The position numbers and the translations under genes are program-made. A DNA stretch of 64,000 nucleotides, from the NCBI GenBank assembly GCA_012845835.1, contig JABAKD010000025.1, positions 3,207,819 to 3,271,818 of the forward strand, read 5' to 3'. Each line of letters begins with the position of its first letter. Position 1 is the stretch's first letter. Shown here piece after piece: positions 13,502 to 58,029 of this stretch. Source of the DNA: Undaria pinnatifida. Taxonomy: Eukaryota; Sar; Phaeophyceae; Laminariales; Alariaceae. Below the pieces are notes generated by a model. The model made no database searches, had not been told where the DNA came from, and saw only the letters and a list, made by a program, of their open reading frames with translations.

Positions 13502-13564
13502 TCCTTATACGTGGATCGTGTGTGCGAAAATCGTGAAACGCGGTAGAGGTGAGAGGGCAGCATA

Positions 13565-13690
13565 TTCAGTGCGGGGCACGAGCCCACCCAAGACAGTGCT
13601 TTCGGCGAGGGGTTCGAGTCCACCCAAAGCTGTGCTTTCGGTGTGGGCACGAGCTCACCTAAGACAGTGTTTTCGGCGAGGGCGCGAGTC
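13565..13690. repeat. Short tandem repeat, about 45-bp unit, three copies
   Basis: Three units carry the core cacgagcccacccaagacag followed by tgctttcggcgagg. They lie between the integrase and RNase H parts of the gypsy fossil. Confidence 0.75.
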
Positions 13691-13779
13691 CACCCAAACC
13701 GACCCCTGAGATCGGCGAAGAGGGAGCACGCAGCCCGCGGGTCCTTAGGAGGTAGATACCGCTTTCTCCAACGGGGTTG

Positions 13780-14240: not shown

Positions 14241-14399
14241 ACTTCTTTTGATTGGCCAACGCGCCCGAGAAATAGATCGGAAACGCCGAAGGGGAAGTTT
14301 TGCGAGCGCTGGCCGCTGTTAACGGCCCGGTTGCGGCGCGGACGAGATTTCTTGGTTCTTGCATTCGCAGTGCAGGTGCGGAACCGACTAGGGGAGGCC

Positions 14400-14860
14400 G
14401 GGTGCGCCGACCCGGTCTCATTGTCGCCAATAGCTTCGCGAACGGCAGAAAGTGCCTCACCGAGCAAGGTTTTCCTCTCCCCTGGCATGGGTTGTTGGCC
14501 CTGGGACCATCCGCCCGGAGACCAATGCCCCACGCTGGGTCCAGAGGTCTTGATTCAGCCAGAAGCTTGTTGTCAGAGCTCAAAAGGTGTTTTTTTTTTT
14601 TATGGCTGGATTCTGCGTGAATTTGACGTAGGTGCCAGATAACACGGCTTTTTGCTTCTCCCTGTCCCCAACAGCGGAGTCAAAGTTGCGCACGCCTCGA
14701 CCAATGCGTTTGCGTGTGCTTGGACTAGGCGACGACATGATGAGCCCCACTGCTCGATGGTCTTGGAAAAGCTTGGTATTTTCGGCCATCATGTACTGCT
14801 CCGCGCAAGAATATGGCACGTCGTCCACGGCAAACGACGAAGGGGACCACGGTGGAAAAT
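14400..14860 (-). pseudogene. NADAR (YbiA-like, DUF1768) domain carried in the gypsy fossil
   Basis: The minus strand shows the NADAR signature in order: VLFWQPPSYF and WSPSSFAVDDVPYSCAEQYM, AENTKLFQDH, SPSTRKRIGRGVRNFD, KFTQNP, then LAESRPLDPAWGIGL and the N-LLG-AL--VRE end. Family knowledge: NADAR proteins act on ADP-ribose-type N-glycosidic bonds; E. coli YbiA and fungal and algal homologues share the EQYM-AEKA-LF-D and WGIG motifs. The segment has the same orientation as the retroelement and sits where RT would be expected, upstream of RNase H. It is broken. Whether it came from a host gene or was a regular cargo of the lineage is open. Confidence 0.82.
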
Positions 14861-14935
14861 AGGACGGGGGCTGCCAGAATAACACCACTTTGTCTGTGAA
14901 ATATTCGAGAGAAGGGTCAAAAGCCGTGTTGGAAT

Positions 14936-15480
14936 TTAGGCCTGCAATGTTCCCGTTCGGGAACACCGGGCCTCGGGAGCACGACGCGAATCCGAACCCG
15001 TGGTATCTCGCCTCGGGTCTTTCTTCGTTCGTTGGCGGAAAAGCGCGAAAATCCGCTCTAACTGCGCCCGAAAAATGGCAAAAACCGACGGTGCCAGCCC
15101 GTCGGTAGCCTCGTTGGGTATTTGTGGGTCTGCAATGTCCCCTTCTGGGAACACCAGTCCTCGGCTCTTTGGGCCTGTAGTGTCCCCTTGCGGGAGCACC
15201 AGGCCTCGGGAGCAACATGCGAGTCCGAACCTGGGGTTTCTCGCCTCGGGTCCTCCTCACTCGCTGGCGGAAACTCGTAAGAGGCCGCCCTCGCTGCACC
15301 CGAAAAAGAGTTCAACACTGACGGTGCCAACCCGTCGGTAGCCTTGTTGGGCATTTGGGTCTGCAATGTCCCAGTCTGGGAACACCAGTCCTCGGCTCTT
15401 TGGGCCTGTAGTGTCCCCCTCAGGAACACCAGGCCTCGGGAGCACGACGCGAGTCCGAACCCACGGTTTCTCGCGTCGTG
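14936..15480. repeat. About 230-bp tandem repeat, two and a half copies, upstream of the NADAR part
   Basis: Units begin near 14,941, 15,132 and 15,362 with ctgcaatgtccc, followed by gggaacaccagtcctcggct and gggagcaccaggcctcggga-like blocks. Each unit also holds internal 50-bp sub-repeats. In minus-strand translation they give a repeated GTLQAQRAEDWCS-like phrase, but it is unclear that they were ever coding. Confidence 0.8.
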
Positions 15481-16106
15481 GCTTCTTTGCGTTTTGGCGT
15501 ATAATCGCAAGAAAACTGCTCTAACTGCGCCCGAAGGGGCAGGGGCTCTGAGCTGTTTCTGCTTGACGAGAGGCGCGATTCTTCCGTAAATTTACAGGAA
15601 TAGCGTCCAGCTGATCAGGCTGGAGGCCGTGGAGTCACCACTGGCCCGTCGCGCAGTGTCGGATCTTCTTCCTGTGCCACTGGGGCAGACGTAGCCTGAA
15701 ACACGTGGGTTAGCGTGTTAAAAGACGAAGCAGGGTCCGTAAACGCTGTGGGCGTCTTCTGGAGCGGGGCTCGGGCAAGGCAATAATATTTTTACCCGAG
15801 GAGGCTCTCTTCCCTTATGTCTCTTGGAGAAGGGAGACGAGGTAACTAATCTTGTCGACTCCTCCTTGATGGAAAAAAGGACAGAGCGCCCGCTGTTATC
15901 GCGAGCAAACACCGGATCGAGCCTCGCAAAAGATCTCGGTGTTTTAGTGTTGGCCTTCCCACACCTCAAATCGACCGCCACCTCGTGGTCAGAAAAAGTG
16001 TTTCGAGGGTCGACCGTCCCACACCTCAAACCGACCGCCACCGCCTGGTCAGGGAGAGGGGGGAATGAACACATACGCGTAAAAAGGCGACGCGCCGTCG
16101 CCGCAG

Positions 16107-19100
16107 CTAAATTGTTGCGCGGCGCGTGCCTGGGGGGGGGGCGCGCAAAGCGCAGGCTCTCGTGCCATGGTTGATGGGGGCGGCGTTTGGAGTGCGTACC
16201 CCCATTGCTGAGTTTATGCCGCGGCTGAGGGAAACGGCGCTGGAAACGCGGTTCCCGTCGCCGAACTCAGACCATGACCGAGGGGAACGTCGCTGAAAGC
16301 GCGCGTTCTCGCCGTCGAAAAAGAGAGAAAGAAAGAAAATTACCTGGCTGGAAGAAACCACGCTTGAAGCGCTAGTTTCCGCCGCCGGTACTACGCCGTG
16401 AGAATTGTCCGCAGACGGCGTAGGAGCCCGTGTCGCAGACGACGTAGGAGCTCGTGCGCTCTTGACAGAGGCTATCTGTGCTGCGTTACTGGACAGGCTA
16501 GCAACAGAACACGAGCATCTTCTGCAACCAAAAAAACAGGTACCCCCCGACAGTGTTGTCGACGGTGCCGTACCGCCGTCGAGCTGTCGATTGCCGTTAC
16601 GGAATGTGCCAGGTTGGCGCGCGAGTGTATTTTCGCCCGGGTTGTGGGCGGCTCCAAAGCGCATTCGAGGAGCAGGAGCGGGGGCAGAAGAGGCGGGCGA
16701 GCGCAGGATACCATGGTGATCCGACGTGTATGTGGTATCGTTGTGACAGTTTACCTGGCCCTGATCCTGAAAGATGGCGACGATTTTTCTTGTGGTTGTT
16801 CGGGCGAGAAGATTTGTCGTCTCGGCGGTAGCAGACCATGCGTGTGTGTCAACGTCGGTGAGCGTCATAGTCGTCAAGTTGGCCAAGTTCAGGGTTCAAG
16901 CGGCCACTCGCACTAATGAAAGGATGCCTACAATGCTTGATGGAATGGTTGTCTTCGTGGCAGTTGAGGCAAAGCCCCCAGTTTTCTCGGAGGGCATTAG
17001 CGCGAGGTGGAAGGAGGCCGCTCCAAAGGGGAGGGTCGTCTGTCTTAAACGAGGCCTTAACGGCGAAAACTTCTGCATAATGATGCTCTTCTAGTGGCCA
17101 GCAGTTCGATGTGTGGTCAAGCCAAGGGTCAGATGAATCATCGATGGGCGTAACAGTTGAATGATGACTCGATCCCGTCTGCCACGAAAGCGACTGGGGC
17201 GGCACTCGGCCCTGGCCGCGCCCATGATCGGCGGGCCGGGGCCCCGACAGGGCGCATGATCGCGCTCCCGTCGAAGAAACAGGGAGAGAAAAAAAAAATG
17301 TTTCGCCGTTGACGGCAGGTGTCTTATTAGTCACTAAAAGCCCGCCACATAGCATCCAACGAGGCGTATGGCCGCGGGTCCGTTGCCTTCGAACCAGGGT
17401 ACAGCGCAGGCAAGAGAGCCGGAAATTCCTCATTCGCCGCCACCCGAACCACCTCCAACACCACATCCGTCCCCGGAGACAAAACACGCTCACTCCCCGT
17501 AGCGGTCGGCATAAGTACGCGAAACTCCCGACTGAAATAAGAAAAAGGCATGCCGTTACACATTCCAAAAGTATGCAACTTAGTGTAGCCCTCCTCCGTG
17601 TCAACCCCGTCGAAGTGCGTGATCAGCAGACGCAACAGAAGGGTGAAAGCCTCAGGCCCAGACGCTTCTCCTGCCATGGCTCTTGACACTTTTGCCTGCT
17701 ACCACGACCACCTCGCTGTGGTCCGTGCTCGAGGACGAAGATGAGCGGGAGGAGGTTGACGAGCCGTCCCACGCTGAACGTCCTCTGGCGCCATTCCTCC
17801 GCCCTCCGTTGCCTCCGCCAGAGCTGCGGCCAACTGTCCCGGTTGTTGGACCAAAGTTGCCCCCTCGGCGGCGCCCTCAGGCACACCAGCACCCGATGCG
17901 CTGTCATCCCCGCGGCGGTGGTGGTGGTCGCCACCGCCACCATTTTTTCCGCCACCCCCACGGTTGCGGTCCCCGCGGTCGCGACTGTTGCTGCGTCGCT
18001 GTTTCCCCCGGTTTCGTTCTGCCAGCTCTTCCTCCGGGGTTCGGCCACAAGACAGGGTTGGGGTTCTCGTCGTGGGCTATCAGCAGGGCCTTGACGAGGG
18101 CAAGGGTCGGGGCGGCTCTCGTCTGTCTAGCATAGGGCGTACAATCCACGCGAGCCCAGGCCGCTTCCACTGAGGACGTCCGCTTGCCGCGACGCCGGCC
18201 TCTCTGACGGGCAGAGGGCGCAGGCCGTTTCCACCACCGCGGTCGCCAACGCTGAGGAGAAGTCTACCCTCGGTGCAGACGCCATGCACGCGACGATGCC
18301 CTTGAAGAAGGCGTCGTTCCCGGGTCGTGGTCGCTGGGGTGCGACACCCTGCGGGAGCGACGAAGGCAAGGGGGCCGCGGTAGCTCCCGCCGCAGCCGAC
18401 GCAACTGATTGGGCGAGGAGGGCTTGTTGCGCCCTCTTCGCTACCAGGGACGCCTCCCGCGCAGCGGTCTTCGCCTGCTCGATATCTTCGTCAAACCGAC
18501 GTCGGCGTGCTATCGTCTGGTTGGAGTCGTCGAGCGCCCGCTGGGCCCGCGCTGCCGCGTATGCCAAGTCCAAGGGGGCGGCATGGGCACCCCGGTCCCG
18601 GGAGCTCTGGGGGTGGCGCTCTGTCGAGCGCAGAGAGCCTAGGTGGCGGCGGTGGTGCCCTGTCGAGCGCGGGGGGGGGTAGCTGGTGGTGCTCCCCCGG
18701 GGCTGGCGAGAGCTGGCGTCGAGACGCCCCCGAGTCCGGTGGGGGTTGGTCCGTCTTCTTCTCAGCGCGAACCGGCGAATCGACGCTCTTGGCTGGTGGG
18801 AACGGGTGGAGGTATGGTGCTCCGTCTTCTGTCTCGTCACCGGAACCCGCCTCCGGTGGTTCCCCCCGTCTCGAGTCGCGGCATCTCGAGCGAGCTCTCC
18901 CTGTCTCGTGGACATCCAGGTTGGGGTGCGTGGAAGACCTCAGCCTGCCCCGAGTAGCCCGCTTCCTCACTGGTAGACATGTTGCTTGTTGTCTGTATGG
19001 AGGGCAGCGGAAGGAGGGGGTGTGGGGGAAGGTGGCGGGATGGGAACGACGCGTAAAGAAGCTATGGAGGCAGATATCTGTTGTGGTGTCCCTTCTGTAA

Positions 19101-19138
19101 GTAGCGGTATATTTGTGTTTCAGCAAACAGCAAGACAT
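16107..19138 (-). pseudogene. Gypsy Gag-like region (fossil)
   Basis: The minus strand has a proline-rich N-terminal stretch (about 19.1-18.5 kb), an alanine-rich coiled-coil-like piece with ARAQRALDDSNQTIARRRRF (about 18.6-18.3 kb), a capsid-like piece (17,689-17,327), and a CCHC zinc knuckle CLNCHEDNHSIKHC near 16,935. Downstream there is low-complexity sequence. Family knowledge: Gag forms the particle and binds RNA. Broken fossil. Plus-strand frames over the same DNA are shadows. Confidence 0.65.
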
Positions 19139-19319
19139 GGGCCTCGACTCCGTCCAGCATCAGTGATGGTAGCAGCCACGCCAACTAGCCGTACAAAAGG
19201 AGTACAGCAGTAAGAAGGGTACCATCCACCAAAACCGCAACATAAGAGCAGCGCCCAGTCTGACCGTAGGGTATACGGGTAACGCCGCACGAACCGCAGT
19301 AAAAGCAGCCAAAACTGGG

Positions 19320-19945
19320 CAGCACTGACCCTAACCGCAGTGCAGGGGGTGCAACACAGTAAAGGTACGTCTGCAGCCATCGGACCAAAACAGGCATAAT
19401 TCAATCTAGGCGGGGGGGAGGTAACACAGGAAAGCGTCGCCCAAAACGCCCACGCCCATCGCACCAAAACGGACAGCATTTAACATGGGTGCAGTGTAGG
19501 GGGGCACCACACAGTTAAGGGTTGCACAAGAAGCCCACGCCCATCGCACCAAAACAGGCAGCATATAACCTAGGTGTAGCGTAGGGGTGGAAGCACAGTG
19601 AAGGGTCGCCCAACACGCCGACACTCATCGCACCAAAACAGGCAGCATTTAACATAGATAGGTGCAGTGTAGGGGGGCACCACACAGTTAAGGGTCACCC
19701 AACACGCCGACACTCATCGCACCAAAACAGGCAGCATTTAACCTAGGTGTAGTGTAGGGGGTAGCACAGTGAAGGGTCGCCCAACACGCCGACACTCATC
19801 GCACCAAAACAGGCAGCATTTAACCTAGGTGTAGTGTAGGGGTGGAAGCACAGTGAAGGGTCGCCCAACACGCCGACACTCATCGCACCAAAACAGGCAG
19901 CATTTAACCTAGGTGTAGTGTAGGGGGTAGCACAGTGAAGTATCA
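19320..19945. repeat. Minisatellite, about 80-85-bp unit, seven copies
   Basis: The unit core is atcgcaccaaaacaggcagc, followed by atttaacctaggtgtagtgt and agggtcgcccaacacgccga. Copies near 19,700-19,945 are almost identical; those near 19,320-19,450 are more diverged. Non-coding. It lies at the right edge of the gypsy fossil. Confidence 0.9.
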
Positions 19946-20222
19946 TATGTCGGCAAAATATTTCATACCTCGTAACCTATTGATAGTATTGATTCTAGTC
20001 TATAGTCTAGACTACTAGTTGTAAGTAGTGATTTTTAATAATAGTGAGGCGCGCGACCTCAATACTTGCAGTGGTCCAATCTGCAATGCTGGGCGACTAC
20101 GGAAAATGAAAATACTGAGGCAGAGCAGCGAACGAAAGAACCGCTGCAATTCCATAGCACAACTGGTCATTCATGTCGTAGATAGATGTGAACTGAACAA
20201 ACCAGCACGAACAATATTTAAT

Positions 20223-20576
20223 ACAAGGGCTCCGCTTCGCGAGCGGCTGACGCCGCCCGCTACGCTCGCGCAAAGCAAGGAAGAATGCAACTAAAAACAT
20301 GTGAAGGGGCCAGAAAGAAGAGGCCCACGATTTGGTGCGGGCAGCGATTTGATAATGCCAAGAGCTGCTTGTGCAGAGCAAATTGCCTTGTTGTTGTGCT
20401 CAGCTGTGCTGTGTGCTTTTGGTACCGGTGTTACGTTCTGATCGGCGGTACGGGGGTACTTTGCGTGGGGGGAAAAACAGGGGGCCGTGCAAGATCGAAT
20501 ACATGTAGAAAAAGAGCAAATAAGAAAAGTATAGACCCGGTCCTGCTCTAGTCTATGTTCGAAAGAAAGGACACAG
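20223..20576. repeat. Dispersed repeat, copy 2
   Basis: Direct copy of 8,985-9,352. Beyond the point where copy 1 is cut by the LTR, this copy continues into a GC-rich stretch (gcacagcgcagcacgacac) that is related to the tandem unit at 22,008-22,700. Confidence 0.8.
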
Positions 20577-20739: not shown

Positions 20740-21245
20740 GGTGTAGTAGTACGGGTATGTACTATAAGCTTCAAGGTCTTCTCGTAGGTTCGAATCCCGG
20801 TGTCATCGAGGAAAAAAATGATCCTCATGAAAAAAATAATAGATATCTACGTGACTTTGTGGTCTTCTAGTATATAGACTGTCCGCTTATGAGCCTGGTG
20901 TTCTTTGGTTGAATCCAGGGGTCATATGAAAAAAAAATGATCTTCATGAAAAAAATGACATTTATTTTTTGGTAAAAAATGGTAGAACTGGTAGATACAC
21001 CACTGCTGCTGTGACATATTGTGGTCTAGTACATAGACTGTCTGCGTATAATCCTGGTGACCTTCGCTGGTTCGAATCCGGGTGTCATCGAAAAAAAAAA
21101 TGATCCACATGAAAAATCGATATTTATTTGTCGAAAAAAAATTAGATAGCAATGTGACTTTGTGGTCTAGTAGATAGACTGTCCGCTTATAAGCCTGGTT
21201 TTCGTTGGTTGAATCCAGGCGTCATCGGGGAAGAAAAAATATCCT
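20740..21245 (+). repeat. Array of four tRNA-like SINE units
   Basis: Four units spaced about 120-160 bp apart each end in a B-box-like sequence (ggttcgaatcc at 20,787; ggttgaatcca at 20,907; ggttcgaatcc at about 21,069; ggttgaatcca at 21,207). Three have an A-box-like D-arm 45-50 bp upstream (tggtctagtagatagac type at about 20,860, 21,021 and 21,160). Each unit is followed by tgtcatcg and an A-rich segment with atgatcctcatgaaaaa. Box spacing is right for a tRNA-derived RNA polymerase III promoter, but the stems do not fold into a functional tRNA. This is most simply a tandem SINE or a tetrameric tRNA-derived repeat. Confidence 0.7.
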
Positions 21246-21366
21246 CTTATAAGAATCGATATAAATATTTTATATAAAAATTGAAAAACGTCAGCTGCGA
21301 GTACGACCGACTGAATGGTTGAAACTCAAAGCAAGAAATCAAAGAAAAGCTGGACCAATTGTAAAT

Positions 21367-23130: not shown

Positions 23131-23641
23131 CACACCAGACCAAGGCCGGGTTAGCGTCGCTGTGCGTGCGTCTCGTCGATCAGCGCCCAAAAATGGCTAA
23201 TTGAAGCAGTAGTAGTGTCGGGATTTTTCGGTTTAATTCTCGAAGGCGAACCATCTGCATCCCCCATCATCAAAACACATCCAACATCGGAGGTGGGTAC
23301 CCCAGCCGCCACCACGGTACCTACAGCAGAGCTTGTCTGTCTCCCCATCCGTACGGTGGGCCGGACTATATCATTTGCAACATGTTTCAGGGACACGGGC
23401 TCAAAGGGTAATGTGGGCAGACGAACACAATGGGCGCTCGGTCGCTTCGAAGTTCAAAAATATATAGAAAATCGTCCTGTTGACCCGCGGACAACATCCA
23501 GGGGCGTCCGACCGATATCTTTCAAGAAAATCAAATACTCCGGAGTATATAACACGCACGAATAACCTTCCGTAAATTTTGTACAGGTACTAGACTATAT
23601 ATTAGCGAAATATAGATATATCGAAATCGTTCAAACCAATC

Positions 23642-24261
23642 ACGAGGGCTCGCCTCGCCATAGTACCTTTATTGTGGTTGGTTTACCGTAGAGCCTTTCC
23701 TGCCCCCCCCCGCCACACCGGCGGCATGCGGCATGTTCTAGAGCCTTTTCTGCCCCCCCGCCACGCCGGCGGCATACGGCAGGTTTTTGATGGGTGACTA
23801 TTGCCTTGCTGTAGGGTCTGCTTTTCTTTCTACTGCTCTTCTTCGCGTGTTCCTGGCTCCGTAGCCAGACGGTTAGAGGTGTGGGAGTGGGTTTTGAGGA
23901 GCCGCATCTTCGACTCATGGTCTAGTTCGTAGAACCGGAGTTTCCCCGAATCTCCCATATTTCTGCATATGCGACTCATCAGGGTGGGCTAGTGTTAAGA
24001 TACGGCCTCGAAAGGCCTGTAGGTATCCGAATTTGAGATCATTTGGATGGGTTTCGTATGATAAGGTTGGCGGTTCATATTCGGGGAAGTTAGGAATTAG
24101 ATCGGAGGCACGCGCCTCCGATCTCAGAAGCTATCCCGGGCTCTGGTGGAAACGAATAAAGCTACATCTCTACGAAGGAACGAAAGTGAGTACTCTCCGA
24201 AGACCTACCCAATTGGCAGACCTGCAGGGGGCACTCTGTGTTCCCACCTATTAATTTAACA
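23642..24261 (+). repeat. Truncated LTR copy, opposite orientation to the gypsy fossil
   Basis: This is the reverse complement of 9,353-10,130. It ends in the same TTTAACA but lacks about 34 bp at its start and has one copy of the 161-bp unit. No coding part of the element is attached, so it is probably a solo or truncated LTR from a separate insertion of the same family. Confidence 0.75.
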
Positions 24262-24973: not shown

Positions 24974-25314
24974 TATTTCTCACAAATTGACAAACCGAAA
25001 GTGTGAGAGCGCGAGTTGGCGGAATTCGACAAACCCGACGAGCATAAAAGCTAAAAAGTGGTATTGTTGAACCCTATGCGCAGTAAAAATGAACGCACAT
25101 ACATATCGGGGGGGCGGGGCGGCAAGACACCGGCTATGACCACGGCTTGTCCAGAAGATCGCTAAGGGCAAACTTCTTGCGACTTGAAGCGGCAAGACGA
25201 TGATAAAAGAAAACGTGACAAACGAACTTTTGTTCTGGACTCTCAATAAGGCATTAGAAGAAACAGACAACAGACCGGAAGCATGAACCTGCACGTTCAA
25301 TACTCGTAGGTAGG

Positions 25315-25685
25315 TGTTATAAGGCTTAGTTTGGGTAAGCTATTGGTTAACCTTTTGCAAGTGGTCAAACGGACTAATACCCCACTAATACCTTAACAAA
25401 TGGCGTCGTCGGCAGGACATGGGTTTTTGGGTCGTGGGTTCAATCCCCACATCCACCATAATAAACTTTTTCAGATTTTCCCATGGCGAACTTGAAAAAT
25501 ACTCTTCCTGGTATCCCCAGGAAATGAAACGGCTTGGATATTGACAGAGGTCCGCCGTATATCCGGCCGACCTGCTATCCCGCCGTTTCAGGGGGGGAGA
25601 GTGTTATAAGGCTTAGTTTGGGTAAGCTATTGGTTAACCTTTTGCAAGTGGTCAAACGGACTAATACCCCACTAATACCTTAACA
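25315..25685 (+). mobile_element. Complete TRIM (terminal-repeat retrotransposon in miniature)
   Basis: Two 84-bp LTRs (25,315-25,398 and 25,602-25,685), both starting TGTTATAAGG and ending CCTTAACA, look identical by eye. They flank a 203-bp interior. Two bases after the 5' LTR is a primer-binding site TGGCGTCGTCGGCAGGAC, and a purine tract cagggggggagag precedes the 3' LTR. The 4-bp duplication TAGG lies outside both ends (25,311-25,314 and 25,686-25,689). It has no coding capacity, so it depends on proteins from another LTR element. Matching LTRs point to a recent insertion. The interior also contains a tRNA T-arm-like sequence, gtgggttcaatccccac. Confidence 0.93.
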
Positions 25686-27691
25686 TAGGCCAGTCTTATG
25701 GGAAGAAATTCGTACATTCTGGATGGGAAGCTAATGAATATGCTATGATATATGCGCGGTATGAAAACACGGCTATCCTGCACCGTCCGGTGTCCGCGCC
25801 ACTCGCAGAGAACTCTTCAGGATTCAATAGAACAACAACCTATAACATTCATAAACAAAACAACAATAGATAGAACAACAATTTCGTCTACTCAATTAGT
25901 CTACTCAAATACGGTGGGGTACCTGATTTAGGAGCGCCAATAACTACAAAAAACGGAAAACGGACTTAATCTTTTTAGAACTCCACTACATACGTTTTCG
26001 AGGACTAATTATTTGAACTTAGAGTTGGGCTTAATTTGCAGTTACAAAAGGGTTAAGGACGGTCAAACCTGCTTGTCACACCTTGTTGTGTCGCCTACAC
26101 TACAACCTATATAATGGCTAATCTGGGATAAGAGCGGCACGGATATAAGAGTGGCAACACTCGCCTGTTTCGAGGGGATATCAAAGCCGGGTACCCCAGT
26201 GCTGTTCGTATTGATATTATTGTGTTGTGCGTTTTTCATGTAGCCTTTTGACCATCATCATGCTTGGGGGCAGCTCATTTTGGGTACACAAAACTTTCGG
26301 GCTTAAGACCTGGACGTGTTGGTACAACACAGAAGAGGTACCGCGTAACATGCAAGATAACACAGCACTCCCGCGGACAATTTGAAGGCCGATTTTCTCG
26401 ACAATGGGGACAGCGCAAACGCCGAGCGACGGATCTACGGAAGTATCTCGGCGACATCTCCTCAAAGCCGCCTTTTTCGTCCCCCCCCCCCCCCCCCCTC
26501 CCCTAGTTTGGGAGGAAATCGACTCTGAATTTTATCCCGGGTTGTGCGTTATCTTGCCTTATCTCGCGTGTTGCTACACTGCATGTCAGGGAGCAACAAC
26601 AATACTTTTTTGCTAACGCAACAGCAGAGCAGCAGCGTAGATATACGCCCGTCAGCCATCAGATCTCTATATTATTAACGGCTGCGTTATTGTGACCACA
26701 CGAATCGGTCGCGACATCTTACTGTCCCTCTTGTTGTGCTTCGCGCTCTGCGCTGCAAGCAATGTCATCTGCCACTGCCGGGGTTCCGCAACCGAGGTGC
26801 TACGTGTGCCCAATATCTATGGGCCCGTTATGTTCATAACCTCTTACGTTAGATACCACCCCATACGACTACTGTCCAACGGGCTTATGATAGCTTGTTA
26901 TCTTCCACGAAAGCGTCTGTTGGGTGAGGTATGCGTGAGGCATAGGTGGGGTACACAGCGCCTTAATTTAGGAGCCTCACCAAAATTAGGGCTAACCCCT
27001 ACTACTACTGCTGTGATACTACAATACAGTAGCCTTGATCTAGCATTGACAACGGAAGGCTTTTCCGCTGCTCGCCCACGACAACAGTAAAGTTGTACGA
27101 TATCTCCTTCTTGACGCGTGCTACGATAGAGGCGATTCACCACTATTTTTCTGAGGTTTCTCAATTGGGCAGCTCAAGACCTCTCCCAAAAGCTGAATTG
27201 GAGAAAAAAGAAGCTGCTGCCGGATGAAAAACCCCACGGCCTAGGTACACAATGAGAATCACGCAAAAAAAAATGTCCTACTATTTATTTTTTTTCGACT
27301 TTGAGTTAAGGAGCCCCCTCAGTCAGAAACCATTTTCGCCAAAAAACGGTATACCTCTATCGTAGTACGCGTCCGGTACAGCGTGCAACTCTTTGGGTGT
27401 CAAAAACGATGGTCAGTGCGTCGCCGTGGATTGCGGATTGGTTTTCACTAACATGGACCATAAGTTTAACGGGTCGTAGTGCTATAGTATTTCATATCTT
27501 GCCAGGGTGTTATCTATTTTTTTCACGAGCCTTGTTGTTTATAATCACGATCGTTTGCTGGCTTTTCACCAAGATGGACAGCATGTTTGACCCGTGATAT
27601 GCCCCCGCAGGGTGTTCTATACTTATATTGTATCATTCATACGAAAGACAGTATGCGTGATGTTTATCTTGTCGGTGATATTCTTCGGCAG

Positions 27692-35302: not shown

Positions 35303-35564
35303 TATAAATTTTCTCGTCGGTCCTCCTTTCCGTTTCTGGATGCTTGCTGACATAATTTGATCATCGTGGAATCTGTTTCTGCCACCATTTAGGGTGGGCT
35401 GATGTTATGGAGTGCTCGACGTAGATGAGTAAGCTATAGATGACACATTACATGAGGTCAGTTTTCTCATGAGTTGCAGGATGAGCCATACCAAGGGTCT
35501 GATAGTTGGTGGGGAAATTTGGTGATGCTTCGCGGTGGAACATCGCCGCATTGGATCACAACGT

Positions 35565-35933
35565 TGTTAAGGAAATAGTGGGGTATTAGTCCGTTTGACC
35601 ACTTGCAAAAGGTCCGATAGCTTACCCAAACTAAGCCTTATAACATTCTTCCCCCCTGAAACGGCGGGATAGCAGGTCGGCCGGATATACGGGCGGACCT
35701 CTCAATATCCAAGCCGTTTCATTTCCTGAGAATACCAGGGAGAGTATTTTTCAAGGTAGACATGGGGCAAATCTGAAAAGTTTATTATTGTGGATGGTGG
35801 GGATCGAACCCACGACCCAAAAACCCATGGTCTGTCGACGACGCCATTTGTTAAGAAAATTAGTGGGGTATTAGACCGTTTGACCACTTGCACATGGTTA
35901 ACCCATAGCTTACCCAAACTAAGCCTTATAATA
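35565..35933 (-). mobile_element. TRIM unit at the left of the compound array
   Basis: LTR 35,565-35,645, interior 35,646-35,848, shared LTR 35,849-35,933. The interior holds the primer-binding site (reverse complement of tggcgtcgtcg), the tRNA T-arm-like gtgggttcgatccccac on the minus strand, and a purine tract. Confidence 0.88.
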
Positions 35934-36005
35934 CTCTCCCCCCCTGAAACGGCGGGATAGCAGGTCGGCCGGATATACGGCGGACCTGTCAATATCCAAG
36001 CCGTT

Positions 36006-37056
36006 TCATTTCCTGGGCATACCGGGGAGAGTATTTTTCACCATCTTGCGCGCCACTAGAGCCGGGTCGGCTACATCCACCATCGCAAAGAAATCCGGGT
36101 AGCGGCGCGCGATCGCTCGCGCAATGCGACGCGCGTCACCCGCGTCCATCTGATGCGGCGCCGGTGCCGTCGAGTACCGAGCGATGCTAGCCGCCACCGT
36201 CTCGGGGCTCAGGTACTCTAGGCAGTTCGCTCCTTCTTGAAACGTCATGATCGCCGTCATGCGTTCGAGTCGTGCTGCGAATTCCGGGTGCTCGCGTAAC
36301 GGCCGGAACACGCGCGTTCGCTCAGGCATCCCGAGCGGGCGTTGCCCTTCAGACGTGTATGCGTTCAGATGCCCCACGTGTTGCAATAGGGCTTCGTCCG
36401 CGCTCGAGGCGTTCGCAACGATGAACGCGCGCACTTTTGGGCGCGATTCGAAGTCGGCGCGCGTCAACGTTCCGTAACAGCGCTTCAGCTCGACCAGCCA
36501 CGCGGCTTTCTTGGGCGTCGCCGTCGCGCTCGCTTGGCGCGACGCCTCATCCAGTCCGCGGCCGATCAAGGGGTCTTGAGCGAGCTCTATTGCAGTCGCT
36601 GCTTGCAGCAGCGTCCGTCTCGCGATCGCCGCCATCCAGTCCGCAAACATTGTCGCACCCGCCTCGGCCTGCGCTGCGGGTGTGTGCACCGCGAGCGCGG
36701 GCGGCGCGTCAGGTACGTGTCGCCACGCCTGTCGCAACCGGTGCGTCGTTCTCGGCGGCTTCCTCGAAGACCACCGACGTGAACACCCCTGCCGTCGTCT
36801 TCCCGACCCAATAGGCCGGCTTGCCGTCGCCGGCACCCTCCGCATAGTGGAACCGCAGGCGTCCTTCATCGTCCGCTTCATCGGATATCACCTCTACGTG
36901 GACGTCGCGTTGCAGGAAGTACGCTGCGATCGTCGTGCAGGATTTGAGCGCATCAGCTTCAGGTATCGTCGCGCTCGATTGCAGGATCGAAAGGCTCGTC
37001 ACATTCGCGTCCCACATGCGCGCATGGCGAATCCCCGTCACGCACTCTTCACACAC
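36006..37056 (-). pseudogene. 3' part of the cargo coding region (unknown protein)
   Basis: Two adjoining minus-strand frames cover this part (37,056-36,709 and 36,881-36,006). Visible features: a CEEC pair following a CTC pair just upstream, suggesting a zinc-binding knuckle; a region with VHVEVISDEADDEGRLRFHY; and an alanine/arginine-rich helical C-terminal region (KKAAWLVELKRCYGTLTRAD, HPEFAARLERMTAIMTF, RRIARAIARRYPDFF). The last residues run into the conserved TRIM 3' segment. No family was recognised. Fossil; part of the LTR element. Confidence 0.5.
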
Positions 37057-39415
37057 GTCTGCGTCCGGGGTTCGACCGAGCGCCCCAAACTTCGCCGCAC
37101 GTGCAGAGGCGGGTGCCCAGATAACGGCCTAAGTGCCCGATCAGGCGTTGGGGCATCGTCCCGGCGCGCGCCATCCGGACTACCTCCGCGATCCCGTAGC
37201 GTACCTCGCGCAGCGGCAGGCTTATGTCGGCCACGATCTCCCAGTCTGTGCGGCCCGCCAGCCGCTCGTCGGTCGCCCAGGCCTCCACGTCTCGCGCGTT
37301 CAGTTCAGCTAGCGTCGGCGGGCCGGCTGTCGCTCGCGCAAGCGCCGCCGCCGTTACCCGGCGGCCTTTGCGTGTGCGTCCCGGGTCCCCCCCCGGCTGC
37401 TTGCCCGGCTTGGTCGCGCCCTTCCCGCGCGAACCTTTTTCGCGCTTCCCGCTCGTGCGGTCGGGAGCGCCGGCTATCAAACGTCCCATCCGTAGTGGCC
37501 CTATCACGTCTGCTAGGCGTGCGGTCTGGGCGGTCTCTCGCACCGCGTGGGGCGCGAATGCGCGCCCCGCATCCCCATAAAAGGGTCGCTCCGCCTTTAC
37601 CGCCTCTACCGCCTCTACCGCCTCGTACGGCTCGCGCGCTAGTGCTAGCTCGTCTATCAGAAGCCCCCAGCCGTCTGGCGTCCAAACGATGCTGGTGCCT
37701 CGGCCGGGGGTCGTCAGCGCCAGCCCGACTCTGCAGTGCAACGTCTCTCCTCTATATACATGTACCACGGCGCCCATGCGTCTACAGAATGCGGCCACGC
37801 CGTCCAGTTGCCGGCCGCGTCCCGTCACCGGCTCGGCGCCCGGACCCGCACTAGGACCGCTCGGCCTGGCGGGCCGACCGGCGGGCTGCAGGTCCGTCGC
37901 CTCACCTGTCGCTGCCAACGCTAGGCATGCTTCGGCGGTCGCGCCCCTCCCTCCGGGGCGTTGCAGGTGCACACGGCGGCTGCTCCGCGTCGCGTTTCCG
38001 CGGCGCCCCAACAGCGCCGGAGGCCATCCGAGAAGCCACACGTGTTTCCAGCAATAACCGTCAGCCGCACCGCTTGCATGTATGCGCGTCAACACGCTCC
38101 TCAGGCGTGACTGGCCTGGGCGACCGGCACGTCGATCGCGCCGGTCCCAACGTACGAGCGGTTCCGTTACACGCATACCCACGCGCGTGGGGCATGTTTG
38201 CGGGCTACCCGCCATGTCGGGATCTCCGATCGCCGATATACGATGGGGCTGCTCTGTGCTGGTGACGCACGTCACGTAAGGTGCTTCTGGCTGCCGGGCG
38301 TGCGTGCCGCTGCGTGCGGCGCTCGCCCAGTCCTCACGTTCATCCTCGCTGAACCCGCCGTACAGGCGTAGTGACCCGCTCCCATCCGCGTGGGCCTGCA
38401 CGCACACCGACCACCAGCCAGCGGCGGCCTCGTGTCTGTAACCTTCTAAGTCGCCCACCTCGTCGTAGACCCACACTACGCAGCGACGCGCGCGCGCGTA
38501 TGAGGTCGGTGTCCACTCGCGCGCCGGGCGCCACGACGTCACGTCGGCTCCCTCCGGTGCGTCGGCGGCGCCGAGGGCTCTACTCAAGCCGCCCGGCCCC
38601 TCGTAGCGTACCTCCCGGAAAGGAGCGCGGGGTCCTCCGCGACCATGCGTCGCCCTGCGACTCAGCCACTGCTTGCGCACGCCCGCGGCCGGGTCACACG
38701 CCGTCCGGGCGTCGCGGGCCGCCGTGGTGCGCACGACATCAACTCGCACGGGGCCCGTCGAGCACGCCGCGTGCTCGGGCACCCCTCTGGGTCGGCGCGC
38801 CGGCGGGCGTGCGCGCGCGTGCATGAGCAGCCGCCAGTGACCCGCCATCACCAGCACGCGCACGCACCATCCGTCGGACTGGGGCGCGCCATACCAGGAC
38901 GTCGCGAGCGCCCCATCTTCGAAGACGTGCACATTAGCGGTGTACGTCTTCGTGAACGCGTTCAGCAGGCTCGCCCCAGCCTGGCCCTGGGGCTGCGGCG
39001 CGTGTTCGCATTCGTAGCCACGGCCCGCTAGCCCCAATTCCGATAATAGAGCGCGCGCGCTTTCGCTCGAGCCCACACCCGTCTTGGCTGCTGCGAGGCA
39101 TCGCGCGAGGCAGTCGCCTTCGCCGCCGAAGTCGTGCGCGAACACCCCGAGCTCGGCGTCCGCTTCCAGCACCGACACTCTAGACGCGCCTCCGTATTCC
39201 GATGCGTGCCACACGTTCAGCCAGTCGCTACCGTCCAGCCGCGTTCCTGAACGGCACGCTAGCCGGCCCACTCGCGTCTCTAGTGGGTCGTCCCACGACG
39301 CTACCGCCTCGTCCTCGCGTGCTTCGGGGCCCTCGGTCGCGCAGCCGCCGCGCGTAACGTTGAGTGGACTCGCCTCCATTGAGCGTCCCGACCACCCGCC
39401 CCGGTGGACCAACAT
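37049..39415 (-). pseudogene. 5' part of the cargo coding region with OTU-like domain(s)
   Basis: A 788-codon GC-rich minus-strand frame. Near residues 97-197 it shows FGGEGDCLARCLAAAKTG, then YTANVHVFEDGALATSWYG and AGHWRLL: a G-D-C motif (Cys102), a NVHVF strand and a GHW motif (His193), in the order seen in OTU-type cysteine proteases. Two later segments (around RCVVWVYDEVGDLEGY, and ADGYCWKHVW followed by AVVHVYRGETLHCRVG) look like diverged repeats of the same fold. A basic G/K/R-rich linker (KREKGSRGKGATKPGK) and a C-terminal CTC pair follow. Family knowledge: OTU enzymes cleave ubiquitin-type bonds and also occur in RNA-virus polyproteins and transposons. OTU assignment is by motif only. 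The plus-strand frame over the same DNA is treated as a shadow. Confidence 0.6.
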
Positions 39416-39473
39416 CTGGCCCCACTCCGCCAGACGCCCCGGGCTTCCTCCGGGTCCTGCCGACGACGATGTT

Positions 39474-39850
39474 TGTCAAGGTATTAGTGGGGCATTAGTC
39501 CGTTTGACCACTTGCAAAATGTTAACCAATAGCTTACCCCTACTAAGCCTTATAACACTCTCCCCCTCCTGAAGCGGCGGGATAGCAGGTCGGGCCGGAC
39601 ATACCGGTGGACCTGTCAATACATCCAAGCCGTTCCATTTCCTGGGGATACCGGGGGGAGTATTTTTCAAGTTCGACATGGGGAAAATCTGAAAAGTTTA
39701 TTATTGTGGATGGTGGGGATCGAACCCACGACCCAAAAAACCCATGGTCCTGCCGACGACGCCATTTGTAAAGGAATTAGTGGGTTATTAGTCCGTTTGA
39801 CCACTTGCAAAAGGTTAACCGATAGCTTGCCCAAACTAAGCCTTACAACA
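39474..39850 (-). mobile_element. TRIM unit at the right of the compound array
   Basis: Shared LTR 39,474-39,557, interior 39,558-39,766, outer LTR 39,767-39,850. The interior is collinear with that of the 25.3-kb copy. On the minus strand the primer-binding site TGGCGTCGTCGGCAGGACC follows the outer LTR. Confidence 0.9.
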
Positions 39851-41000
39851 ACGTTCTATAGAGGAGCTGGATCCACCCCACCGTGGTAACGGTAGTAACG
39901 GTACGGGTTGCAGTTGTTGGATTAACTAAGAATGTACCTAGTCGGTGGAGCTCCTCAAGTAAGGAACTGCCGGTTAGTCTGATACTCATCGAGCGCATGC
40001 TTGTTTCAGGAATGAGCGAATGGAGAGTTTGTCGGATTGCGCTAGCGAATACCTTCGAAGTATTATTTCGGGTGATGTTGATGTTGATGTTCAGCTTGTT
40101 CCTCATGTTAGGAGCTCAGAAAATTCTTAGAATCTTCTGCTGCACCCCTACTGTGGCACGACTCAGAGAGTTCTCAGATAGTGACCTTCCACCTCGCCCT
40201 TTGTGTGTGATGTTTGGTGAGCTACAAGCGGATGGAGAATGAATGAGATACCATGCACCACGAAGGAGGGCGAGCTACCCCGCACTGACACCCTGCGTCG
40301 TCACTGCCGGGGCAAGATTTACCATGGGGCGTAGCGTCGAGAGATATTTGCTTTGAAGGTCTTATTGCTCGTACATTCGCACGGAATCCGCGGTTATCTT
40401 GTGCGACATACCGGTACCCAGCAGGGCCTCTCTATAAAACGAACTTTTGGTGGAAATTTGATTGATGGGGTGTGGTAAAAGGCCTATTTATGCTAATAGT
40501 GGGAACAAGTTATCGAATTTTTCTTTTTTACACCATTTTAAATCGGCTACTGTACCTCGCCGGCAACTTAGTATGATACGACTTAATGTGTCAGGACTCT
40601 AGTCCACTCTTTCCGCGAGAGATTACGATAGGAGTTGGCAGTTCATACAGGGCCCGGGGTCGATTTGTTTTTGGAGGGTGCAGGGCTGTGGTGAGATTGG
40701 GTAGCGAGGAAGTAAGCCCCCCACCCGGGGTACGAGGCCAGTACACTCTTCTAGCCTTGCTTCTCATCGATGTAGAGACATTTAATCGCTCAGGAAACAA
40801 TTACCTCTCCTTGACCACGAGCTGAATGGGCACAATGAATCATCTCATCAGTTGATTGAGGTTTAACCAGCATCGTTTTCGAGGAGTAACACCAAGCTCT
40901 CCCTTTCAAAAGGTCCAAAGGTTTGCCTAACACCGACAGGCTGGCATTCTGGCACTCCAACTCCAACTTGGTCAGGAATTAGTTTGCCAAAATCTGTGGC
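39851..41000. other. No recognisable gene
   Basis: No domain, repeat or RNA gene was recognised between the compound TRIM and the LINE. Confidence 0.5.
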
Positions 41001-41003
41001 CTC

Positions 41004-44000
41004 TTGGCAAGATCTTACGCCGTAAAAAAAATGGAACCCAAGACCTGCAGTGTGTGTGTTGCCTTCTGTGATGGTACTCCGCGTGGGGGATGCGTGGTTG
41101 GTTGGTGTTGGGAAGCGTGCCCCTCATGGGTTCCGGTGTCTTTATTAGCTCTCCACAGGTTCGTGCGGGTGCATACGTCTCAGTACAACTCAAGGGGGAA
41201 AAAAACTGTCTGGGAAAAACGGAGGGTGGAAGGGAGGAAGTTGGATGCTTGGAAGGAGAGGAGAAGACGCAAGAGGATTCGAAGGGCTGCTCAAAGAATA
41301 CGCACAGGCGCAAGGGCTAGGTCGAGAGTAGGGGAACTCGTCGAGGGTACGTACAACGTTCGCACACTTGATTTCAAGGGCACCAGCGGCGTAGGCCACG
41401 CCGAGGTGATACTGAAGACTCGCGAGGACGCAGGTTGTGATATCATAGGATTGCAGGAGGTGAGGTGCAACGGACAAAGTGCTGTTACGGCGGCGGGGTA
41501 TGTTGTGTTTTGCTCAGGAGCAGACGGAGGAAATCACGAAAAGAAGGGGAACCACGGAGTAGGCTTAACTGTTAGAGAGTCTATCGTGGCAGAGATGGAT
41601 AAGGGTGACGTCGGGGTTGAGTGTATCAGTGCTAGATTGATGAAGGTTCGCATCCAACTCAAAGGGAAATCTAACGGTGTGTCTTTCATTGTAGGCTATG
41701 GTCCCACTCTCGACGAGGGCATCAGATAAAATTATTACTTTTGGAGTTCACTTGACTAGGTGGTCAAGGGGATACCCAGTAGGGACCACGTCCTTGTTCT
41801 GATAGACGCAATTGCTCGTATAGGCATGAGAGGGATCGGGTGGACCGACAGAAAGGTGTTGGGTGCATACGGACGTGACGAGCTGAGCGACAACGGAGAG
41901 CGACTATTGATTCACGCAACTGATAACACACTCGCCCTCCTCAACACGTACTATGCTACACCTGCTCGTGGTATATCGTACACGTTTCAGAGTCCTAACC
42001 GAGGAAAAGCCCAGTACAGGCTTGACTACATACTGACACGGCAAGTGGATGGACGATTGGTACGTAGTGTCACTGTACGGACCCCACCCAGGGAGAACGC
42101 TGAGTCGGACCACAACCTCGTATTTGGCAATATTCGCCTTTTGGGCCGCATCGCACCAAATCTTCCAAAGAGAGTCGTCAAAAACCGGCGAGCTATTGAT
42201 CTACCAAGATTAATGGCGGACCCGCGTCTCCGGATCAATTTCCAAAACGCGATAGCAGCCAAGCTTGCCTCCCCGATACCTGGTACTAATGCCGGAAGCG
42301 TTGATGACATGACTTCATTACTGACCGAGACGCTACTGTCGACTGCGGCCGACATTGCGCCCCCTATTAGGCGCAAACAAGTACCGAGGGGCTGATGTGC
42401 GACCGAGGAGACGAAAGCGGAGTTGAACGCACGATGGCAGGATAGGGAAGACGCGAGGAAACGCGTCCGTTCTGCTCCAAACGATCGTGGTCTACGGCGA
42501 GCCTTGAAGGCGACCACCAAACAGCTGAAACGCACGCGGGGGGAAGCTGTACAGAGGTTCTTCGAAGATTACGTCAGCCAACTCGAAGGGCGTATCCCAG
42601 AAGGTGCTCAATTTGGCTTCTACAAACACCTCAAGGGGATGGATGTGGAAGGGAAGAGGACGTTCAACTCGCAGTGCATCAAAAACGAAGAACGTCGATT
42701 GCTGCGGGATACCGAAAGGCGGTAGGGCCCGATGGCCTCCCGGCCGAGCTTATGAAGGTTTTGGCCGACGAAGGAGAATTGAACACTCTCGGAAAGTGGA
42801 GGGGAGGTGGCGTGCCGCAACAATGGAAAGATGCAACGATTAAGGTGCTTCATAAGAAGAAAGATCGGACTGAGTGTGACAATTATCGTGGCATCTCCCT
42901 CATGGCTCACGCCGGCAAAGCACTCCTCGAAGTCATCGCGGGTCGCCTGAGTGACTATTGCAAACGCGAGGACATTCTGCCGGAGGAACAGTGTGGGTTC
43001 AGACGCCAACGCTCGACGGTTGGCATGATGTTCGTAGTACGACGACTGCAGGAACAGGCGCGGAAGAAGGACACCCTTTTGAACTTGTGTTTTATCGACC
43101 TCACCAAAGCATATGACTCCGTCGACCGAATCCTTCTGTGGGATGTCCTTGCTCGTTTTGGCGTGCCACCGAGAATGCTCGCCGTCATCCGCCACTTCCA
43201 CGACGGCATGCAAGCATGCGTGCGGTTGGATGATGGAGAGTGCTTGCAGATAAGTTTGACGTGGGGCAAGGTCTCAGGCAAGGGCGCGTGCTCGCGCCAC
43301 TGCTGTTCAACATGTTTTCACGGCGGTACTGCGTGCGACCGAGAAACGTTCCTCGCTGGTGCAGCCATCACGGACAACATGGTGCAGCTCCAACAAAAGG
43401 AGAAAGGCGAGAAGAATGGCACTTCGCGCACAGGCAAAGTCGACGGGCGGAGGGGGAAGGAGGGGGAGAAGGTGCAGAGATTGTGGGGTATGCTGTACGC
43501 GGACGATGCGGGCATCGTATTGCGATCATCAAAAGGGCTGGAGAGGATAATGGCGGTGATCGTGACTGCGTGCTCGTCGTTCGGGCTTACGGTCTCCGAG
43601 GCGAAAACAGAGATGATGTGCCTGCAAACCAAAGGCGGGGGAAAGGTGTCTTTCACAATCAATGCAGCCGGCCAGGTATACTAACAAACAATCAAGTTTG
43701 TGTACTTGGACGGCGCAATCACTGCAGACAGAGTCCTTGGCATTGAAATAACGCGGCGTCTTCAGAGGGCCTGGCGTGCTTCCAGCGGTACAAGATGGAA
43801 ATCTATGATCGCCCGGGTGTGCATTTACGGTTGAAGGTGTGGTTGCTGAAAGCTGAGGTGGTCGAGACACTTCTTTACGGTTGCATGACGTGGAGCCCGA
43901 ACAAGCCCGACTATGACAGGCTACGACGGGTTCACCACTCCATGCTCCTCCGATGCCTCGGATGAGGGAAACGGAAACGCGACGACCACTCTCTATCGTA

Positions 44001-56149: not shown

Positions 56150-57207
56150 TTACCCCCGGCGGTGGCGGCAGCAATTTACCGGCAGCACCGGTGGCACCTG
56201 CGGCACCGGCGGCATGTATCTGCCTTGCAAATCGGCGTCCCACGCCTCCGGTACGGCGGCCATTCCCGTGTCTAGCGCAGCCGCGATGATCGGCACACCC
56301 TCCACCTCCCAGATGACGTTCCACGTGTCGCTCGTTAGGCCGGATGGCGTGGGGACTTTGACGTAGTCCCGCGTGTGATTCCGCCCCCTGTTGAGGTAGA
56401 AGCACTGCTCGGCCTTGGGCTCCGACTTATTGGTGCGTTGTACGCGGCCAAATCTGGGTTGCATGAAAGCGATGGTGTTGGTCGGCGGCAGTCTCCCTAA
56501 ATACGCTTCGTACAGTGACTTGTGGCCAGCTTGGACGTGGTTGTCGTGGTTATCATGCAGTCGTTCATTTAGAAGGCCGCTTCCACCCAAAACAAGTTAA
56601 GGTCCTTGAGTTACCCGGGGAACAGCCGGGGGGGCTCAAGGCAAGCAGCCATGCCGCCTTTCTGGATCAGGCCGAGCCCGCGCTCGACCAAGCCGTTGTG
56701 TTTTGGCCCGTCGGCCCCCCTGCACTCATGGCGAATGGTCTTTCTCGCTGCAATCCTCGCGAACGTCTCGTTCACGAACTCGGCGCCGTTGTCCGTTCGG
56801 AAGCATTTGACGGCGTAAACAACGTTGGTCAGGAATTTCGTCGCTACCGCCGCCACGTCGACCGCATTCTTGCTTCTGAGGGGACAGAACCATCCCATGC
56901 GCGTCGCGTCATCCTTGAGCAGGATCAGGTACAGAACCCCCCCAGCAGAAGCAATTTTCCTCGGGCCCGCAAGGTCGACGAAAACGCGCTGCAGGGTTTG
57001 GGTCATCCGAGAGGACGTCGCCGTCCGCACCGACGCACGTCTACCCTTCGCCTGCACGCACCCTCTGCAAGTGAGCAGCCCCCCCGTGAGCTTGACGTGA
57101 TGCTGCCTGGTCGTCTCGCGTCGAAGGCCCTCGTGTGCGTGGGCGTTGCACTCGTGGAGAACATTGGTGTCCACCTTCTTAAAACGTCGAACACCGGGGA
57201 CGAGCAC
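56150..57207 (-). pseudogene. Copia integrase part (fossil)
   Basis: Contains H-x-H and CRGCVQAKGRR of the zinc-binding module, then QRVFVDLAGPRK, YLILLKDDATRMGWFCPL, KCFRTDNGAEFVNETF and the GLVERGL region: the D, D and E neighbourhoods of a copia integrase. The C-terminal part (56,590-56,150) has SLYEAYLGRLP and FGRVQRTNKSEPKAEQCFYL, typical of the copia integrase tail. Confidence 0.87.
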
Positions 57208-58029
57208 GACAGCAGCAATGGACGGGCGTAACGCGGGAGAGGGAGGAGCTCTACCGAGGGGTTAGTCCGCGGTAGTCCTGAGGCAATATGCACCGACTTG
57301 GGGAAAAGGGGGAGAAAATCTCTACTCCTGCGCAGTCTGTTGCCCCCACCCCCGGTGTCGGTGGCGTGGGCAGTAGTGCCGGCGAACTCACCGGCGGCAC
57401 CACCACAGGTACCGGTGCACGGGGGTTCAATGGGGGGTGCTCTATCGCTACTGAGCGGCCTACCGCTACTATCTCCCCCGGCGACGGTGGCATGGATTGT
57501 AACGCCGACGTCCCCGGCGGCGGCATCACCACAGGCACCGACGCACGGGGTGAAGGGGGGTTAGCTCGGCCGTCAACGCCGGGTCGCGAAGCATATGATA
57601 ACGGAGGGGGGGAAGGAAGACGCGTTGCGTATAGTAGGGAATGTTCTCTTTCCATAGGGAAATATAGACGACCACCCAACAGGTGGACACCTGTTGCATC
57701 GAGGGTGATTGCCCGGTTCGCCTGGACAATGCGCATCGACAGCAAGTTAGCCGACATGGCAGGAACGAACGATACAGTCTCTAGGATGACACGTACGCCT
57801 TGTTTGCTGAGAAATATCAAGTCCAAACTCGCCACGTACTCTACTGCCTGGGGAGTACCATCGCGATGTCCACTTTGGCGTTCTCGGGGGAGGGGGGGCG
57901 CAGGTTGTACAGACCGTGCTTGTTCGGGGTGATATGGTTCGTCGCCCTTTTGTTTGGCTATCCAACTTTCACTACCTTAATACCACTCTAACCACCCACA
58001 ACTAACGCAAGACCCATCGCAGATTTCGC

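Follow-up and report, generated by a model that had tools for sequence, protein, structure and literature searches.

A tandem array of miniature LTR retrotransposons in Undaria pinnatifida with an orphan coding sequence in place of one interior

Tandemly arrayed terminal-repeat retrotransposons in miniature (TA-TRIMs), such as Zma-SMART, Wukong and Cassandra, are known in plants and are attributed to recombination in the sections of the three papers drawn on here (PMC4717578, PMC4528315, PMC7215508). The array described here lies in a stretch of 64,000 nt of DNA from Undaria pinnatifida (the window), and consists of four long terminal repeats (LTRs; 81, 85, 84 and 84 bp) in a single orientation with three interiors of 203, 3,540 and 209 bp, the longest of which holds 3.4 kb of coding DNA (the cargo). 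Like this array, the plant TA-TRIMs in those sections have several same-direction LTRs with small interiors, and outer target-site duplications (TSDs) are given there for most Wukong arrays and for the Zma-SMART examples. The TSDs of the Zma-SMART examples are 5 bp long, whereas that of the Undaria array is 4 bp, and the Undaria array alone has an interior replaced by coding DNA. Gene-carrying plant TRIMs (GmaRetroS15 and others), as described in the section of PMC4717578 that was covered, also have intronless coding DNA between TRIM LTRs, but they are 1.2-1.4 kb long, contain recognisable host exons, have 5-bp TSDs and are mostly present in at least two copies; the Undaria cargo unit measures ~3.7 kb with its LTRs, carries an orphan sequence and was found once.

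The locus is probably an ordinary tandem TRIM array that underwent a one-off insertion or capture of an orphan gene, and not part of a mobile gene-carrying TRIM lineage. One TRIM insertion with a 4-bp target duplication would have grown to four LTRs and three interiors by LTR-LTR recombination, and 3.4 kb of an orphan gene, rich in GC and present in single copy, would later have entered the middle interior, with the loss of 75-76 bp of TRIM DNA. End-joining with DNA of foreign or distant origin might explain this single entry; template switching during reverse transcription is a less likely route. A structure with coding DNA between miniature LTRs may thus arise from an ordinary tandem TRIM array and one irregular insertion, and copy number and LTR divergence can tell such an insertion from a true gene-carrying element. 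The original prediction, made from the sequence alone, had read the locus either as a large relative of the TRIM family or as a TRIM that had captured foreign coding sequence, and this interpretation is partly supported.

Structure of the array and nature of the cargo

TA-TRIMs are recognised by at least three same-direction LTRs within one outer TSD, and the array has four such LTRs between two copies of ACGT. The LTR lengths (81-85 bp), the two plain outer interiors and the 3.54-kb inner interior were all found as predicted. The repeats do not reflect chance, as an isolated two-LTR copy is present in the window and many matches were found in the genome. On the minus strand, the plain units of the array read LTR, two bases, a primer-binding site (PBS) starting with TGGCGTCGTCG, purine tract and next LTR. 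The cargo unit has kept the PBS region and the 3' purine-tract segment at the ends of its long interior, and between them the GC-rich cargo replaces the part of the TRIM interior that includes the T-arm/box-B string; the earlier description of a TRIM whose middle was replaced by long GC-rich frames therefore holds. No TSD or terminal inverted repeat was seen by eye at the cargo ends.

The GC content of the cargo (68.3%) compares with at most 61.2% in 107 other, overlapping segments of equal size, and its dinucleotide deviation of 142.8 was the strongest (others at most 118.3, median 55.1). The longest frame within the cargo, 801 codons, is beyond chance, since 500 Markov-1 simulations gave a median of 278 and a maximum of 638 codons. 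With the C-terminal half of the 808-codon frame as the training set of a codon-usage model, that frame was the best in 11 of the 12 segments of the untrained half and above zero in 9 of them, the signal being weaker there. At ~37,100 the coding signal shifts to a second frame, and at ~36,760 to a third, which it follows to the cargo end and which was best there in 7/7 segments. If the frame changes fall within the overlaps of the open frames, the frame that is followed has zero stops. As the codon signal runs through three frames without a stop, the simplest reading of the cargo is a single gene of about 1,130 codons in which the frame changes twice. The predicted coding nature of the cargo is supported, and the coding frame runs in the TRIM sense. 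No introns are present in the open frames, and the last ten codons and the stop consist of TRIM DNA, which encodes the C-terminal residues KNTLPGMPRK.

The profile search that had been proposed for the cargo was performed on its proteins with Pfam, PHROGs, NCBIfam and PDB sequences, and gave no significant domain; the absence of recognisable reverse transcriptase, integrase or Gag was borne out by these searches. AlphaFold2 without alignment produced poor models, with a predicted local distance difference test score (pLDDT) of 44 (808-aa frame) and 42, and Foldseek returned nothing at E <= 0.001 against PDB or viral structures. A phage terminase small subunit was considered for a 214-aa relative of the last frame, on the basis of 24-residue sub-threshold matches (PHROGs E 0.023; Pfam E 0.19, 12.3 bits against a cut-off of 27), which were taken as chance. 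An OTU cysteine protease, suggested by a GDCL...GHW pattern seen by eye in the 808-aa frame, is not claimed, since Pfam gave no OTU match at E up to 10 and the poor model yielded no usable fold match. Bacterial transfer was also considered, and the 12 pattern matches in GTDB contigs included no relative. Within the rest of the window, the cargo proteins had only weak, short matches (best E 0.061).

Two near-identical proteins were found among 5.8 billion proteins, with ~8,000 word-sharing candidates scored per search, and no further relative was detected there. The first (P0001, on an ENA contig of 27,658 bp) is identical to the 808-codon frame at 782 of 788 residues, with 6 differences, and ends at the same residue, so that the first frame change is shared. 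The second (P0002, the 214-aa relative of the last frame) is encoded on three ENA contigs, the longest of 27,658 bp, and its C-terminus is the same TRIM-encoded decapeptide, with the junction between TRIM and cargo kept. Since one copy of the cargo was found in the genome, both are probably the same locus in other assemblies, and the TRIM-encoded tail of P0002 makes it unlikely that the junction is an assembly error. A viral origin was also considered, but no relatives of the 808-aa frame or the 214-aa protein were found in IMG/VR, in which records near their own genome may be excluded.

Copy number, age and origin of the cargo

The genome searched comprised 511,146,479 bases in 68 contigs. 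The original prediction had proposed looking for several loci with the same cargo, as a sign that it moves as an element. One locus only was found: the cargo DNA gave one candidate and one match, which was itself, and the 808-aa frame and the 214-aa protein each gave four candidates and one match. These searches skip common words, and the single-copy result is therefore strong but not absolute. A cargo present only once had been named in advance as speaking against an element, together with two trivial origins of the structure. The first of these, a misjoin in the assembly, is not supported, given the TRIM-encoded tail on the three ENA contigs. The second, that two TRIMs landed by chance next to a host gene, is improbable: a single TSD is common to the outer LTRs, and TRIM interior of 107 bp and 21 bp adjoins the cargo.

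Neither a second copy of the cargo unit nor a TSD of its own, either of which would mark a mobile gene-carrying TRIM, was found; a TSD of the inner LTR pair would be invisible, because these LTRs adjoin TRIM interiors. The primer site of the cargo unit is not intact, as CAT replaces the TGG that is seen in all three of the window's plain units (unit 1, unit 3 and the isolated copy) and that would pair with the CCA end of a tRNA. Among the six LTR pairs, divergence is greatest between LTR2 and LTR3, which flank the cargo (12/84 sites and one indel). The other substitution counts were 5/81 for LTR1-LTR4, 7/81 for LTR1-LTR2, 8/81 for LTR1-LTR3 and 10/84 for both LTR2-LTR4 and LTR3-LTR4, with 0-2 indel events in each of the six pairs. 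Any transposition of the cargo unit as an element would therefore be old. From the altered primer site, the lack of a second copy and the divergence of the flanking LTRs, we infer that the unit is immobile and that no recent movement with its cargo took place. The proposals of a large TRIM relative or of a TRIM moving with its cargo are thus not supported, given the single copy and the contrast between the LTR2-LTR3 divergence and the little-decayed gene. One base is common to LTR1 and LTR4 alone and absent from the family majority, which fits weakly with these two as the original pair.

The preferred reading, a late entry of the cargo into an existing array, depends on the relative decay of the two. 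Compared with the isolated copy, the TRIM DNA of the array has 48 substitutions and 17 frame-changing indels in 840 bases, whereas the gene has two frame changes in ~3,400 bases (Fisher p about 1e-10). The TRIM indel rate predicts ~69 frame changes in the gene, and half that rate ~34. The expected number of stops was 6.6 (P 0.0014), and at half the divergence the P value was 0.037. Relative to the family majority, the two plain units of the array differ by 7.9% and 9.2% substitutions with 4 and 6 indel events. The gene is thus much less decayed than the TRIM DNA, and the cargo either came later or was under selection. Later entry is preferred because of the foreign composition, the single copy and the lack of any sign of function. 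The absence of a TSD or inverted termini at the cargo ends would fit end-joining with loss of TRIM bases.

Several observations weigh against this reading. From the outer LTR pair alone (5/81, ~3% per lineage), only ~3.6 stops would be expected (P ~0.03). Two genomic copies with identical LTRs (L016 and L028) nevertheless differ from the family majority by 4.6% and 5.4%, and part of the divergence is therefore subfamily variation and not age. The indels of the plain array units number 10 against the majority, fewer than the 17 (7 and 10) against the isolated copy. An old insert under selection would be as good an explanation of an intact gene as a young one, and the compositional oddity of the cargo is partly that of coding DNA generally. 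The cargo is also placed neatly between primer site and purine tract, with its frame in the TRIM sense, like the inside of an element, and no donor was found.

The same neat placement would be expected had the TRIM switched template onto a cellular or viral RNA during reverse transcription, the chimera being integrated as LTR-PBS-cargo-polypurine tract (PPT)-LTR and the plain units being added by LTR recombination. Primer-site and purine-tract segments at the cargo ends, the shared sense and the intronless open frames agree with this, and the covered section of PMC4717578 provides a plant precedent in 30 gene-carrying TRIMs of seven subfamilies, containing exons only. However, such an integration would have started with identical copies of LTR2 and LTR3, which now differ at 12/84 sites, while the gene has only two frame changes and no stop in the frame that is followed. 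Moreover, the published elements, according to the same section, measure 1,172-1,449 bp and all but two have at least two copies, as against the one found here. We therefore regard this origin as unlikely.

Selection would account for the preserved frame in two further ways. A captured orphan gene might be under selection in a dead carrier, as a single-copy protein of ~1,100 residues that is read with frame changes, takes its 3' end and stop from the TRIM and outlives LTRs that are 14% diverged; this is distinctly improbable. Alternatively, a functional single-copy gene, foreign or host, might be maintained within an old TRIM array, with a TRIM-encoded stop and perhaps an LTR promoter. A frame followed without a stop over ~1,130 codons and only 6 amino-acid differences in 788 from P0001 would suit such a gene, but there are two frame changes, the first shared by P0001, which ends at the same residue, and nothing recognisable in the protein, and we see rather little prospect for it. 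Very unlikely is a large coding relative of the family, LARD-like (large retrotransposon derivative) or Gag-carrying, of which the short TRIM would be a deletion derivative: LTRs, PBS and PPT segments are in common and larger relatives are given for 11 of 289 plant TRIM subfamilies, with proteins that are short or truncated in seven of them (covered section of PMC4717578), but the lack of a second copy by DNA or protein in the genome already weakens it, no conserved multi-copy interior was found, and no reverse transcriptase, integrase or Gag match was significant in Pfam, PHROGs, NCBIfam or PDB sequences.

Table 1. Features of the array and of the isolated TRIM copy. Coordinates are positions in the 64,000-nt window; the sense of the TRIM units of the array is the minus strand.
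Feature	Position	Strand	Remark
Outer TSD, left copy, ACGT	35561..35564	.	4-bp TSD is the family rule
LTR1, 81 bp, outer	35565..35645	-	3' LTR of unit 1 in sense
Plain TRIM interior 1, 203 bp	35646..35848	-	Purine tract at low-coordinate end, PBS at high-coordinate end
tRNA T-arm/box-B-like string GTGGGTTCGATCCCCAC, interior 1	35797..35813	-	Counterpart lies within the stretch absent from the cargo unit
PBS of unit 1 (TGGCGTCGTCG...)	35830..35846	-	
LTR2, 85 bp	35849..35933	-	3' LTR of cargo unit in sense
TRIM-derived 3' part of cargo unit, 107 bp	35934..36040	-	Contains purine tract; encodes last ten residues and stop of cargo frame
Cargo, 3,414 bp, 68.3% GC	36041..39454	-	Coding; one genomic copy found; takes the place of 75-76 bp of TRIM interior
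808-codon open frame	37049..39475	-	Stop to stop; first ATG codon is residue 21
139-codon open frame	36709..37128	-	Coding signal enters near 37,100
293-codon open frame	36006..36887	-	Coding signal enters near 36,760; terminates in TRIM DNA
TRIM-derived 5' part of cargo unit	39453..39473	-	Primer-site segment; first three bases CAT vs TGG
LTR3, 84 bp	39474..39557	-	5' LTR of cargo unit in sense
Plain TRIM interior 3, 209 bp	39558..39766	-	
LTR4, 84 bp, outer	39767..39850	-	
Outer TSD, right copy, ACGT	39851..39854	.	
Isolated plain TRIM, 371 bp	25315..25685	+	Reference copy of the family; TSD TAGG at 25311-25314 and 25686-25689

The TRIM family and its tRNA-like strings

The isolated copy, the LTRs of which are identical (84/84), was used as the query for the genome search, and 2,722 first-look candidates were obtained, of which 40 were scored, with 54 matches listed including the copy in the window itself. 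The 30 best-scoring matches were taken as loci and one (L018) was dropped, as no full LTR pair passed the filter; the 29 that were analysed are, by this choice, not a random sample of the family. An exact 4-bp TSD was present in 24 of the 29 and absent from five. Three of these five have TRIM-like bases as the right flank, and two of them, L024 and L030, belong to arrays that have an outer TSD (L042 and L041, respectively). The two-LTR copies (n=27) were 369-375 bp long, with interiors of ~205 bp, and the 84-bp LTRs have TG...CA ends (TGTTA...TAACA), in agreement with non-coding, short-LTR TRIMs of high copy number. GGGGGG was present somewhere in all 27, and a purine tract immediately precedes the 3' LTR in all three units of the array and in the family majority string. 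The TRIM family that had been predicted is therefore genuine and has very many copies.

Seven other arrays were fetched, picked from overlapping or adjoining matches, while others on contigs C24 and C19 near 4,349,000 were left out. Three LTRs are present in six of them, and the seventh is a complex of eight LTR pieces. In this selected sample, matching outer 4-bp flanks were found in six of the seven, L038 being without them. Given this and the plant precedent, a multi-LTR array with one outer TSD is ordinary for the family. The eight LTR pieces of the complex array (L037, G000:C48:6590500-6593500) are near-palindromic, with matching outer 4-bp flanks.

Neither a 22-base LTR pattern nor a TRIM interior pattern had a match in viral contigs, and matches by pattern alone came from two genome-contig and three viral-contig loci. 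A tandem tRNA-derived short interspersed element (SINE) array, suggested by the T-arm/box-B string, was ruled out, as isolated copies have direct terminal repeats, TSDs, PBS and purine tract. Rfam gave nothing at gathering score in the window; the isolated copy matched transfer-messenger RNA (tmRNA) with 16 bits (gathering 47, E 0.00014), along with two weaker matches, read as the T-arm. No tRNA was called by ARAGORN in the window. Within the literature covered, and as far as these searches go, this family adds a new member to the TRIM kind. No TRIM- or LARD-type element of brown algae was found in the literature searched, which is weak evidence because most subscription journals were outside its scope, and in PMC3145265, the listed paper that was examined, neither TRIM nor LARD appears as a whole word. 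The family is well defined and very abundant, its target duplications are 4 bp long, and its interior bears a tRNA T-arm.

The 3' end of the tRNA that would pair with the PBS (T-loop, T-stem and acceptor) was predicted as a pattern, which matched the genome 70 times (33 forward, 37 reverse), against 0 for the reversed control. This supports a tRNA partner of the PBS. Of five fetched loci, ARAGORN identified a tRNA at one (L050, Pro, ggg), the 3' end of which fits the PBS, and left four uncalled. In our own manual reading, L050 and L046 would be class-II, serine-type tRNAs. CCA is encoded in the DNA at both. L046 (G000:C1, ~448119-448211) has two inverted tRNA-like 3' ends within ~90 bp, and is palindromic and tRNA-derived. 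Since L046 is palindromic and both loci encode CCA, some of the 70 matches may be tRNA-derived repeats and not genes. The string TGGCGTCGTCGGCAGGA was exact in 8 of the 27 two-LTR copies, the majority string differing at positions 12 and 16.

According to the covered part of PMC10886601, some TRIMs have promoters derived from tRNA or 5S. Helenus (TRIMp3), as described there, has small LTRs, PBS, PPT and A-box-like and box-B strings, as here, and animal Helenus has a 4-bp TSD. However, its tRNA-derived boxes are in the LTR, whereas in the Undaria family the box-B/T-arm string is in the interior and the A-box match is weak. In the two-LTR copies (L006-L035), the interior string was GGTTCGATCCC in 14/27 and GGTTCAATCCC in 13/27 (GGTTCRATCCC; 14 G, 13 A), and the A-box-like string TTTTGCAAGTGGTCAAACGG was found in the LTR of 25/27, upstream of the interior string. 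This arrangement might represent a pol III promoter split between LTR and interior.

Other elements in the window

A Ty3-like element on the minus strand (8984-20531) has RNase H (sub-threshold), integrase zinc finger and integrase core (sub-threshold) matches and lies between 310-bp direct repeats that are 95% alike; a tRNA primer site beside these repeats was looked for and none was recognised. Close to the array, on the plus strand (40983-43684), is a long interspersed element (LINE) with an endonuclease/exonuclease/phosphatase-type match and a reverse transcriptase. A second integrase core match, in GC-rich surroundings, was found on the minus strand at 56614-57261. The window also contains a SINE-like tandem pair at 21010-21266, with a unit of ~141 bp and the tRNA-like string GGTTCGAATCC, and an inverted repeat pair (9353-10141 and 23636-24261) that is ~95% alike.

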